A stretch of 43,412 nucleotides of DNA from Methanocalculus taiwanensis (GTDB lineage Archaea > Halobacteriota > Methanomicrobia > Methanomicrobiales > Methanocorpusculaceae): the NCBI RefSeq assembly GCF_024372745.1, contig NZ_VOTZ01000022.1, forward strand, positions 1-43,412, written 5' to 3'. Below are positions 36,617 through 40,501 of this stretch, piece by piece. Under the pieces are notes generated by a model. The model did not search any database and had not been told where the DNA came from. It was given only the letters and a program-made list of their open reading frames with translations. Numbering within the stretch: the first letter of the stretch is position 1; the number at the start of each line of letters is the position of its first letter. The position numbers and the translations under genes were made by a program.

Positions 36617-37450
36617 TCAGTGGTGAAGCGGAGACTTAAGGGCACGGGGGAGAGCCTCTTTACTGGTTACCACAACAGATGAGCGCTCAAGCATCAGGTT
36701 CACATGTTCGTTCTGTCCAACATGCCTGAAATCGGTTCTGAGGGAAACAACAGGAATCCCTTTCGCATACGCATATCCAATCTCCCATGCGCAACCAGAG
36801 TCGGCATCAGCTCCATCAATTATAGCAACTATCCAGTCTGTTTTTTGAAGGGCATCACAATGAGACCGGAAGATATGATCTATTGCATCCCGATTCCGGC
36901 TTGCTGAATCCAGACCCACCTCCTGGGGAAGATACACCTCAAAACAATGGGTCGCAAGCAGATCCCTGATCAATTCATTGTACTTTCGTTCTGCTTCGGT
37001 GAAGAGCGGTGACGCGAGATAGACCCTGTACCGTGCGAAATCAAACGCATCTATGGCCGGTATTTCCGGGAACCGGGAGAGAAACACACCCCTGTGAGTT
37101 AATTTTTCTTCCGGGCCGTACCATGTGGTGTTCACGCCGCAGGTGGGTGATGAATCTGCCCCGATGATACAGAGTGGCTCCCCACGCTGGAGAATGATCT
37201 GCCGCACCTCAATTTCGAGCCGATCGATGATGAGTTCAAATTCAGGGGTATTCAGCCGCTCTGTGAATGTTCCGGGAGTCCGGTTCTTTCCGAGATAGAG
37301 CGTCTCTGCGCAGGGGAGCGCTACAACCTCAAGCCCGAATGCCGAGCACCGTTTCAGGCAGGCAGCATATGCCCTGAGATCCTCGTCCCGCGTAATTCCT
37401 TCAGCCCGGAGCGAGGGATCGAGGATACAGGGTGCAACCATCACATACAT
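36617..37450 (-). CDS. TudS-like desulfidase fused to nucleoside 2-deoxyribosyltransferase
   Basis: 277 residues from ATG 37450; longer readings overlap tsr3. Residues 1-135 match the TudS/DUF523-related group: Cys8 (APCILDPSLRAEG), Cys47 (ALPCAETLYLGKNRTPG) and Cys104 (SSPTCGVNTTW), with Ser100 and Glu49 nearby. In TudS three Cys at very like spacing hold a 4Fe-4S cluster that removes sulfur from thiouracil. Residues 140-277 match nucleoside 2-deoxyribosyltransferase: VYLASPLF, the Asp in TDWIVAIID, and DADSGCAWEIGYAYAKGIPVV with likely catalytic Glu223. It probably works on thiolated bases or nucleosides. Chemistry is inferred. Confidence 0.72.
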   Translation of the reverse strand: MYVMVAPCILDPSLRAEGITRDEDLRAYAACLKRCSAFGLEVVALPCAETLYLGKNRTPGTFTERLNTPEFELIIDRLEIEVRQIILQRGEPLCIIGADSSPTCGVNTTWYGPEEKLTHRGVFLSRFPEIPAIDAFDFARYRVYLASPLFTEAERKYNELIRDLLATHCFEVYLPQEVGLDSASRNRDAIDHIFRSHCDALQKTDWIVAIIDGADADSGCAWEIGYAYAKGIPVVSLRTDFRHVGQNEHVNLMLERSSVVVTSKEALPRALKSPLHH

Positions 37451-37526
37451 AGAGTCAGTATTGGAACTGATCATTGATGGATTGATCGCGGTGCTTGATG
37501 TGATATGAAGATTAGACACTACTATC

Positions 37527-38021
37527 ATGATCCCTCTCATCTCATACCGCGACAACACCTGCGATCCCAGGAAATGTACGATCAAGCGGCTCGAGCGGTA
37601 TGGACTTGTCAGGATTGTCCCGACATTCCGGCAGGTACCAAAAGGGACGCTCCTCCTTGATCCGACAGCCGGGGTTGTCATATCGCCTGCCGACCGGATA
37701 TGGATCCGTTCGATCACCGCCCTCGACTGTTCATGGGAGGTGCTTGAACGGGAAGAGCTCTCACAGTTCCGTGGGCGGAGGGCACTTCCGTTTCTGGTCG
37801 CAGCAAATCCGGTAAATTTCGGAAAGCCTTTTGTCCTCTCATCAGTCGAAGCGCTTGCCGCGGCATTGATCATCCTCGGTGAGCGCAATCAGGCAGAACT
37901 GATCCTTTCAAAAGTGCCGTTTGGTATCCGGTTCCTCGAAGTGAATGCCGAGCCGCTTGCAGAGTATGCAGCAGCTGTGGATAGTGCCGGAGTGCTCGCT
38001 GTGCAGGCTGAATACCTCTGA
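37527..38021 (+). CDS. tsr3: Tsr3-type rRNA aminocarboxypropyltransferase
   Basis: A 164-residue DUF367 protein. The RDNTCDPRKCT start, LDPTAGVVISPAD, ALDCSWEVL, LPFLVAANPVNFGKP and SSVEALAAALIILG are the family's SAM and RNA sites. It adds an acp group to a conserved small-subunit rRNA position, a late step of ribosome assembly. ATG 37527 is the first base after a divergent 76-base gap shared with the TudS-NDT gene. The gap has a TATA-like GATATGAAG on the plus strand. It ends next to the stop of the Nramp-C gene. Confidence 0.92.
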   Translation: MIPLISYRDNTCDPRKCTIKRLERYGLVRIVPTFRQVPKGTLLLDPTAGVVISPADRIWIRSITALDCSWEVLEREELSQFRGRRALPFLVAANPVNFGKPFVLSSVEALAAALIILGERNQAELILSKVPFGIRFLEVNAEPLAEYAAAVDSAGVLAVQAEYL

Positions 38022-39122
38022 TTACGGCTCGCCTTTCTCTGCTTCAAGCTCGGGATCGATCTCTTTTCTGATCCAGCAGACGAGATCTTTCATATCAATC
38101 TCCTTCTTGTACTGGTTCTCGATCACAAGGTACAGGATCAGCCCGGCTGCCGTGACCACCGACATCGGAAGGAGTGTTGCGCGAATGACGTCTAAAATCT
38201 CTGTAAAAGGAGTTCCAATCGTAAAAAGCGGCAGGATCACCAGGATATGAAGCGCTTCAGCTGCTACCCCGAGGATAGCGAGACGGAGCGGCGTGAGCGG
38301 CAGCCACCGCCTCCCGGCGAGACCACCCAGTATTCCGGCGACAATCGTTGCAACCGCACAGGGAAGAGCGGTCCAGCCCCCAAGCGAGTACCGGTAGAGA
38401 CCGCCGATTGCACCGGCTGCCGCCCCGGCTATGGGGCCTCCGATGAGTCCGGCGAGGATCGGGCCGAGATCCCGGAAATTCAGGAGGACTCCTTCAAAGT
38501 TAAAACCCCGGAATGTTCCATAAATTGAGAGTGTTCCAAAGATAAGAATCAGCCAGAGGAGATCGGTTTTATTTGCAACCCCCTTCCTGAATGCCGATGC
38601 AAGATCTGATCTGACAAAGACAAAAAGAACGAGAAGAACCATGGCAAGCCGCTCCATCAACGGAACCCCAAATGCCAGGATCGTCGCCTCTTCGAGAAGA
38701 GCGACGAGGAGGAATACCCCTGATCCGATCGCCATCACAGCAAGCCAGATACGGGATCCCCGATGTTCCCTTGGAAGATTATTATCGATATAGATCAACG
38801 CAAAGCCGATGACCGCAAAGAGGATCGATGAGACGACAGAGACATTCTTGATAACTGCTTCCGGGCGTCCGATGAAGATTGCAGCCATGATGATCACAGA
38901 GAAAGCAAGAAGGATCAGCCTGTAGAGTTTCTTTGCCGGTATCTGAATACCACCCGCTTCACGGAGAATTCCACAGACTGCACGCGCACGCCCGTCCATA
39001 CCGGAGATTGCAGCACCCGCAAGTAGTATGAACGAAGAAAGGACAAATACCGGAGCTGCAAGGGGTATTGTCATAAAGAGATGTGTTGAGACGGCAATAG
39101 CCGAGATGACCTCTTCATTCAT
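38022..39122 (-). CDS. Nramp-like C-terminal half fused to a 5TMR-LYT sensor domain
   Basis: 366 residues. Residues 1-145 have four helices (about 9-40, 66-84, 95-113, 125-145) that fit Nramp TM8-11: the region after TM8, GMDGRARAVCGILR, is like the Nramp motif with a charged patch. Residues 155-345 match 5TMR-LYT, the membrane part of LytS-type sensor kinases: NFRDLGPILAGLIGGPIAG, GAIGGLYRYSLGG and AGILGGLAGRRW. A charged tail ends it; no kinase domain follows. The ATG overlaps the stop of the preceding gene (ATGA), so the two are co-translated. A joint transport-sensing role is inferred. Confidence 0.72.
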   Translation of the reverse strand: MNEEVISAIAVSTHLFMTIPLAAPVFVLSSFILLAGAAISGMDGRARAVCGILREAGGIQIPAKKLYRLILLAFSVIIMAAIFIGRPEAVIKNVSVVSSILFAVIGFALIYIDNNLPREHRGSRIWLAVMAIGSGVFLLVALLEEATILAFGVPLMERLAMVLLVLFVFVRSDLASAFRKGVANKTDLLWLILIFGTLSIYGTFRGFNFEGVLLNFRDLGPILAGLIGGPIAGAAAGAIGGLYRYSLGGWTALPCAVATIVAGILGGLAGRRWLPLTPLRLAILGVAAEALHILVILPLFTIGTPFTEILDVIRATLLPMSVVTAAGLILYLVIENQYKKEIDMKDLVCWIRKEIDPELEAEKGEP

Positions 39123-39940
39123 GTGGTGGATTGAAGGCTGTACCCGGCCCCTATCGCCAGGAATACAAAACTCATGAGGCCGATAAGCCCAAATCCGATT
39201 AAGAGATCGGTTTTGACAATCCGCATCTTCTCGGGAAGATCGGTGATGCAGGGTTTTCCACCGGTCTTCTCATGAAGCCAGACCGAATAGAGGAGGAGGT
39301 TTAATCCTGCGCCAACCGCTCCAAGAAGGGCCATGATCTCGATATAATAGTGGGGATCCAGATGCGGAATGAGTCCTGCTGCAACCTCGGTTACCGGAAC
39401 ATGAAGGGCAAGAAGGCTGAAGAGTATACCGATAAAGAGGAGGATCATCATCCCGATGATCACCCGCTCCAGCCGCTCATAGCTTCCTTTCCAGAGGATA
39501 AAGAGGATCAGGGCAAGCGTTGCAATCGCGATTACCTGGATCGGGATCTCGAAGGGGAGCAGGTAATAGAGGAAATGCGCTGCGATGATGAGGAATCCCC
39601 CATATGCAAGCATCTCGAGGATATAGATGATCGTGATGAAGGTGACTTCCCAGTTCCGTGGCCCGGGAATTGACCGAAGACCTGAGAAGATCGTCTTTCC
39701 TGTAGAAAGTGTATATCGGGCGATCCCATATGCAAAGGCATACTTATAGATGAGCGCGACTGCAAAGACCCAGAGGAGGCCATAGCCGGTATGCAGCCCG
39801 GCATTGATGATCTCAACAAGCCCCGATTCGCCTGATACCTCAAGTGCAAGGATAAAGACCGGACCTAGAAAAAAGAAGCGTTCCGCAAGCTGCCTTCGGA
39901 AAGAAGTGATTAAGGCGGGAAGGGATGTTTGGATCTGCAC
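39119..39940 (-). CDS. Nramp-like divalent metal transporter, N-terminal half, degenerate motifs
   Basis: 273 residues, about seven helices. TM1 aligns with Nramp TM1 (FLGPVFILALEV...EIINAG), but DPGN is replaced by GESG (37-40). TM6 also aligns (LLGAVGAGLNLLLYSVWL), but the metal-binding MPH is AGL. So both unwound binding segments are altered and normal Mn/Fe transport is unlikely. The chain stops after TM7, and the next gene continues with TM8-11. The start is GTG 39940; a TATA-like CTTATATTA (about 39962-39970) lies about 25 bases upstream, so the mRNA is probably leaderless. Confidence 0.75.
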   Translation of the reverse strand: MQIQTSLPALITSFRRQLAERFFFLGPVFILALEVSGESGLVEIINAGLHTGYGLLWVFAVALIYKYAFAYGIARYTLSTGKTIFSGLRSIPGPRNWEVTFITIIYILEMLAYGGFLIIAAHFLYYLLPFEIPIQVIAIATLALILFILWKGSYERLERVIIGMMILLFIGILFSLLALHVPVTEVAAGLIPHLDPHYYIEIMALLGAVGAGLNLLLYSVWLHEKTGGKPCITDLPEKMRIVKTDLLIGFGLIGLMSFVFLAIGAGYSLQSTT

Positions 39941-39976: not shown

Positions 39977-40501
39977 TCAGATACGCACCATATATCCGGC
40001 TGATCTGATCATCCTGATGACCGCATCATCCCACTGGGAATCGGAGAGCCGTTCAAGATTATGAGCTTTTTCTGCGAAAATACTGAGCAGAACGGGATCA
40101 TCTGAAGCAAGATGTCGTGATTCCATGATCCTCCCTGCCCGCCTCCCGCCACCATCAAGGATGAGCATACGCCAGCACCCATAATCGCGGCAGATATCAG
40201 GGCGGGTTGCATGAACGCAGCAGTAGCCTTTCTCTTCCTTTTGTATGAAACGGAAGAAGGGGCATGCCTGGGGGCGGTTGGTGAAGGTGTTCTTCTCAAG
40301 TTTTTCATCAAGAAAGAGGGCTGTTTTATCGGGATCGATCGTGACCGTTGTCCTCTCGCCCGAATAGCGGTTCCTGACGACATACCGGAGATTGCCAAGA
40401 TCAGATTCTATTACATGGACAATGCCAAGGTGGCTACAACAGTCGCCGCACTGGCTGCATTCAAATGACAGGTCTATCCCTCCATACCTACTCTCATGCA
40501 T
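39977..40501 (-). CDS. YkgJ-family cysteine-cluster protein
   Basis: 174 residues with the family's Cys pattern: Cys15, Cys18, Cys21, Cys22 (FECSQCGDCCSH), then a Cys in QACPFF and the Cys-rich CCVHATRPDICRDYGC. These bind a metal or Fe-S cluster. The family is thought to take part in metal or Fe-S-dependent modification, but its activity is unknown. It overlaps the methyltransferase gene by 8 bases, and the Nramp-like gene starts 36 bases on, though that gene has its own promoter-like signal. Confidence 0.85.
   Translation of the reverse strand: MHESRYGGIDLSFECSQCGDCCSHLGIVHVIESDLGNLRYVVRNRYSGERTTVTIDPDKTALFLDEKLEKNTFTNRPQACPFFRFIQKEEKGYCCVHATRPDICRDYGCWRMLILDGGGRRAGRIMESRHLASDDPVLLSIFAEKAHNLERLSDSQWDDAVIRMIRSAGYMVRI

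Follow-up and report, generated by a model that had tools for sequence, protein, structure and literature searches.

A methanogen family with an Nramp-like fold, a replaced metal site and a fused 5TMR domain, and its frame-broken member in Methanocalculus taiwanensis

Two overlapping open reading frames of Methanocalculus taiwanensis that resemble a pair of coupled transporter genes are, judged by comparison with their relatives, a single Methanocalculus gene that a one-base frameshift has interrupted; this frameshift is either a real, recent event or a sequence error. In its intact form, found by the same comparison and conserved across the Methanomicrobiales, the gene encodes one polypeptide of about 640 aa, in which an Nramp-like domain precedes a 5TMR domain. 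Our preferred reading is a LeuT-fold carrier or transceptor whose solute is not a metal but resembles an amino acid or is an organic acid, and which is equipped with a built-in carboxylate receptor. We infer its substrate, direction and coupling, and put the probability of this reading at roughly 0.45.

The window, i.e., the whole stretch of 43,412 nucleotides that was analysed, carries both frames on its reverse strand. Chain 1 (39119-39940, -) has 273 aa and a GTG start codon, chain 2 (38022-39122, -) has 366 aa and an ATG start codon, and the two share the ATGA overlap that the earlier note had described. Chain 1 corresponds to Nramp-fold TM1-TM7, the first part of the fusion gene. It matches Pfam family PF01566 (Nramp) with E 7.7e-21 over profile positions 5-226 of 357 (75 bits against a cut-off of 29.8); NCBIfam model NF037982 matches as well, and the NCBIfam name for this chain would be divalent metal transporter. 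Chain 2 holds the rest of the same ancestral gene, namely TM8-TM11, a helix H0 and the 5TMR-LYT domain claimed beforehand. The latter, a 5TM-5TMR_LYT domain of S-component fold (38121-38573, -), is matched by PF07694 at residues 184-334 (E 1.6e-38, 132 bits against a cut-off of 24.6). Residues 1-145 of chain 2, which had been taken for Nramp TM8-11, give no Nramp match when searched alone against Pfam, but residues 274-638 of the intact homologue L003 (639 aa) align collinearly with chain 2, and since the Nramp match of the intact homologue (L003/L052) runs unbroken over profile positions 5-344 of 357, the assignment to TM8-11 can be upheld. Pfam finds no kinase domain (C-terminal kinase or HATPase) in chain 2 or in the scanned intact homologues, and no further PF01566 match is present in the window's genome (2.34 Mb, 69 contigs).

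Across the 199 genomes of the class that were searched, the nearest homologues are each encoded by one uninterrupted frame of about 640 aa, both in the same genus (G145, G100, G033, G004) and in many other genera; intact relatives in general are single frames, mostly of 614-863 aa. The order PF01566 then PF07694 in one polypeptide holds in the scanned intact relatives except L032 and L033, which lack a PF01566 match by Pfam yet match chain 1 by BLAST; in the window the frame is broken. The closest relative, G145, is collinear from end to end, with about 91-92 % protein and 86 % DNA identity. DNA alignment with G145 and G055 locates the frameshift at 39123-39145 (-), in the variable TM7-TM8 loop, which is among the least certain stretches of the homologue model described below (low confidence at loop residues 271-274). 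At this junction the window is one base shorter than G145, and the missing base produces the ATGA overlap as well as the stop codon that ends chain 1. Because the relatives are single frames and one base makes the difference from G145, the split is attributed to a frameshift or a sequence error.

The earlier note had instead proposed two subunits that complete one fold. The ATGA overlap would indeed allow coupled translation, the break falls in a loop and neither half shows relaxed selection, but no relative is split by design and at the junction a single base separates the window from its closest relative, so that a genuine two-subunit protein is now very improbable. Intact single genes in the homologues are also the outcome that the earlier note itself had named as refuting its proposal. 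A same-genus copy that is also broken near this site (G055/L054) was considered as a second naturally split case and dismissed, its break being an NN gap. What does persist in the homologues is the fusion, together with the replacement of the metal residues by motifs of the GESG/AGL kind (31/31); the split itself is absent from these intact single frames. Programmed frameshifting was deemed unnecessary given the intact frame in the relatives. The relaxed constraint that would mark an old pseudogene is not seen in either half: with both chains summed and L005 as outgroup, non-synonymous against synonymous changes number 28/76 and 23/61 along the branches of the window and of G145, respectively. 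The strain might carry a newly formed pseudogene, the frameshift cutting the carrier domain and causing a real and recent loss of function, a possibility that we rate somewhat below even odds. The constraint on both halves equals that on the intact relative, implying that such a loss must be very recent, and a sequence or assembly error explains the split equally well. Either origin of the split is compatible with any functional reading of the family.

The fold was assessed on an AlphaFold2 model of the intact G145/L052 protein, computed from 29 related sequences (mean pLDDT 80, pTM 0.72). By our own helix assignment, seven TM helices precede the split point and four follow it, before H0 and the 5TMR block. 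TM1 is broken at residues 38-39 and TM6 at 209-211, as in LeuT-type carriers. Foldseek ranks BfraNramp, DraNramp and EleNRMT first, with target TM-scores of 0.79-0.82; YcsG, in the YcsG-FabL integrative model 9a52, scores 0.77, and the APC amino-acid carriers ApcT, AdiC and BasC form the next group at about 0.6. According to this model the intact protein has the 11-TM LeuT-type Nramp fold with broken TM1 and TM6, and the claimed Nramp fold of seven plus four helices is borne out on the homologue, at a TM-score of 0.82 to both BfraNramp and DraNramp.

The canonical Nramp metal site is lost. Alignment to E. coli MntH confirms that, as the earlier note had read, the window has GESG in place of DPGN at the unwound site of TM1 (39821-39832, -) and AGL in place of MPH at that of TM6 (39299-39310, -, AGLN for MPHx). 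The loss extends to the whole family. MntH residues D34, N37, M209 and H211 are replaced in 31/31 aligned fusions, and H216, D109 and E112 are replaced too; within DPGN, Asp has become Gly, Pro has become Glu and Asn has become Gly, while Met is Ser, Ala or Gly and His211 is Leu. None of the 31 keeps the canonical Asp, Asn, Met or His, and the aligned fusions are therefore without the Slc11/NRAMP signature for Mn and Fe. By contrast, E38, E43, E109, E158, K66 and R75 are invariant in these fusions (n=31), and such strict conservation of replacement residues argues for a working site rather than decay. The earlier note's conclusion, a transporter-like sensor or a carrier of some other substrate instead of a Mn/Fe importer, is supported by these results. 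DPGN and MPH are missing from other PF01566 clades of the phylum as well, so motif loss as such is not unique to the fusions; this particular combination is. The long relatives L032-L034 differ from the 31 fusions in having SGR-G in TM1. Two unfused Nramp-like relatives of 416 aa, on Methanomicrobiales/Methanoregulaceae contigs (L082:3512-4762 and L086:594-1844), have GWVG in TM1 and TGL in TM6; even the Glu found invariably in the fusions is missing from them.

Could the protein still transport a metal, through a site rebuilt from E38, E43 and E109? The PF01566 and NF037982 matches would fit, a published account of such fusions assumes metal transport (PMC11109136), YcsG has been reported as a Mn importer (PMC10448178), and both NRMTs and NRATs remodel the site within the same fold (PMC8806188). 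However, the TM1 Asp that is kept in NRMTs as well as NRATs (DxxG and DxxN, respectively; PMC8806188) is Gly in 31/31 fusions, the Asn, the Met and both TM6 His residues are replaced, and the sister clade of the window's group is tied to an amino-acid-type binding protein. Nor is the signature of the NRMT magnesium transporters present, which comprises DxxG in TM1 and TxxA/T in TM6 (PMC8806188): besides the missing Asp (31/31), TM6 of the window reads GAVGAG. We consider continued metal transport improbable, while acknowledging that the conserved acidic residues could form another metal site and that the report on YcsG counts against a non-metal carrier.

The 5TMR half offers a hint as to the ligand. 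In the pyruvate receptor BtsS, mutagenesis has identified R72, R99, C110 and S113 as necessary for pyruvate sensing (PMC10653868). Aligned to BtsS, the putative ligand-site residues of chain 2 (38358-38480, -) are N215-x-R217, R244 and C255, equivalent to N70-x-R72, R99 and C110; the window reads NFR at chain 2 residues 215-217, and it has Ala at the position of S113. Over the 32 aligned rows the equivalents of R72, R99 and C110 are kept in 24, 29 and 26, respectively, and S113 is mostly Ala (22). The conservation of three of the four pyruvate-binding residues suggests that the 5TMR ligand is a carboxylate. Against this, N, R and C are conserved in the 5TMR family generally, and Ser113 has been exchanged. 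The domain also occurs in larger arrangements. Fusions of 845-863 aa contain a second, tandem 5TMR domain (L041:2912-5503, L042:3069-5606), and proteins of 1152-1167 aa combine an Nramp-like part with two 5TMR-type stretches (L032:1388-4846, L033:2175-5678, L034:2685-6143). The C-terminal region of about 300 aa in L032-L034 was considered as a kinase and rejected: it has no Pfam match and is HATPase-like by eye only.

A second hint comes from the gene neighbourhood. Clustering of flanking genes revealed that in about half of the fusion loci a gene of about 400 aa lies directly downstream on the same strand, often overlapping the fusion gene by 4 nt; in L064 it is upstream. Its product belongs to Peripla_BP_6 (PF13458; E down to 4.5e-48), and its closest solved structures by sequence are branched-chain amino-acid binding proteins. 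In the sample of about 200 genomes of the class, where loci share ancestry and counts are thus not independent, the binding-protein gene adjoins 30/50 fusions, all of them in the sister clade. Conversely, 31/33 strong matches to this binding-protein family in the class adjoin a fusion, and one of the other two lies at a contig start; for weaker paralogues the figure is 0/12. Aligned to LivJ, its residues S79, T102, Y150 and the acidic residue at 226, which we take to be ligand residues, are kept in 18, 19, 18 and 19 of 19 sequences. On the tree, the fusions with a binding protein make up one side of a single starred branch, and the window's protein is among those without. LivH/LivM-type permeases (PF02653, the sole Pfam family searched, on which the absence rests) were found in 0/21 fusion-bearing genomes against 12/14 in a control search. 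In nine Methanocorpusculum loci (L062:3844-4872 and related ones), a different, Bmp/PnrA-like binding-protein gene (PF02608) lies upstream of the fusion in divergent orientation, although the genomes of that family that were tested yielded no PF02653 permease.

Because the metal site is lost family-wide and over half of the fusions adjoin an amino-acid-type binding protein, the solute handled by this family is probably not a metal but an amino-acid-like compound or an organic acid. For the window the amino-acid clue is carried over from the sister clade, since members of its own clade are without an adjacent binding protein: no such gene adjoins the window gene or any other Methanocalculus fusion. 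A partner encoded elsewhere in the M. taiwanensis genome was also sought and rejected; its two other Peripla_BP_6 proteins, of 683 and 691 aa, are not near the gene. The first (L133:1393-3444, contig C1) joins its Peripla_BP_6 domain to a Peptidase_C13 (legumain-like) domain, and the second is encoded at L134:1303-3378. At 39977-40501 (-), 36 nt upstream of the window gene in the same orientation, lies a gene of the CxxCxxCC family (PF03692), which occupies this position only in Methanocalculus relatives and possibly shares an operon with the fusion gene. On the downstream side, a DUF367/Tsr3-type gene is convergent with the fusion gene. Farther on, 36617-37888 (-) encodes a protein that resembles nucleoside 2-deoxyribosyltransferases (PF05014) and has a long N-terminal region; in other Methanocalculus loci, its relatives are encoded two genes downstream of the fusion.

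The strongest rival to a carrier or transceptor is a pure receptor, in which the Nramp-fold half has given up transport and forms an input module together with the 5TMR domain, joined in the sister clade by the binding protein; this module would pass its signal to a separate kinase in the cytosol. A kinase-type neighbour (Response_reg-HisKA_2) is located upstream in some loci of both clades. Specifically, L047, L050, L065 and L072, none of which has the binding protein, carry a Response_reg-HisKA_2-HATPase_c gene immediately upstream in the same orientation, with gaps of 15-128 nt; members of this gene cluster are divergently upstream in L057, L059, L061, L075 and L077. Moreover, 5TMR is the sensor of the LytS/BtsS kinases, and no adjacent gene points to the catabolism of a particular solute. 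Yet the LeuT-fold half retains its invariant polar set and, in the homologue model, the broken TM1 and TM6; the kinase-adjacent loci come from few lineages only, and no kinase adjoins the Methanocalculus gene. On this evidence a pure receptor is rather unlikely. The LeuT fold, the rebuilt polar core and, by analogy, the precedent of PxpT/YcsG all speak for a carrier or transceptor that acts on an organic solute.

Such a carrier or transceptor might work as follows. In the 11-TM Nramp/LeuT-fold domain, another conserved polar set takes the place of the metal and proton residues, and this half would bind and move the solute. The 5TMR half may sense a carboxylate outside the cell and either gate the LeuT-fold half or report on it. 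In the sister clade, as the genetic linkage indicates, a membrane-anchored LivJ-type protein could capture an amino acid and hand it over to the fusion, which is its only linked membrane partner. A similar substrate may apply to the clade of the window, with a binding protein acting from elsewhere or none needed. Taken further, this would define an undescribed class of methanogen systems in which a LivJ-type protein, in genomes without a LivH/LivM-type permease, docks on an Nramp-fold carrier or transceptor with an S-component-fold receptor, and of which the window's branch has no binding protein; we advance this tentatively and hold it to be doubtful at present.

The fusion as such is not new, contrary to the earlier note, which knew of no description of the arrangement. 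A fusion of NRAMP (PF01566) to 5TMR (PF07694) has been reported as mainly archaeal and as the sole case of an integral transporter fused to the 5TMR fold, and was taken for a divalent-metal transporter (PMC11109136, Commun Biol 2024). In the open-access literature we found neither an account of metal-site loss or binding-protein pairing nor any work on Nramp in Methanomicrobiales. What is added here is the replacement of the metal residues in 31/31 fusions, the invariant charged set, the three retained BtsS residues and the linkage to a LivJ-type protein without LivH/LivM. This matters for annotation, as the sole published account found speaks of a metal transporter plus sensor and the NCBI model of a divalent metal transporter for a family that is entirely without the metal site; an apparent pair of coupled genes, too, can be a single-base frameshift. 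If the pairing with the binding protein is functional, it would represent a new way to feed a LeuT-fold protein from a binding protein, a task that TRAP systems perform with a different fold, and would assign a testable substrate class to one of the unassigned Nramp outgroup clades.

Among known systems, DraNramp, BfraNramp and EleNRMT share the 11-TM LeuT-type fold, but their metal and proton residues are absent from the fusion family. A functional precedent is PxpT/YcsG, of Nramp family TCDB 2.A.55, which is required for the use of 5-oxoproline (PMC13274462) and thus has a genetic role in the uptake of an amino-acid-like organic acid; it resembles the homologue model in structure, as the Foldseek comparison with YcsG indicates, but it is without a 5TMR domain. 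The LytS-type pyruvate receptors BtsS and YpdA have in common with the fusion 5TMR the N-x-R motif, the second Arg and the Cys of the pyruvate site, whereas the fusion has no kinase domain, carries its 5TMR after a carrier domain and in most cases has Ala for Ser113. The sister clade, in which a binding protein is paired with a membrane carrier while an ATPase is not linked, would resemble TRAP transporters, which are binding-protein-dependent secondary carriers; these differ in membrane fold and in binding-protein family, and the window's clade does not have the adjacent binding protein. Finally, the archaeal fusions of PMC11109136 have the same architecture, with 5TMR C-terminal to an Nramp-like transporter domain; the main text of that paper makes no mention of binding-site loss or of a binding-protein partner, and both are added by the present analysis.
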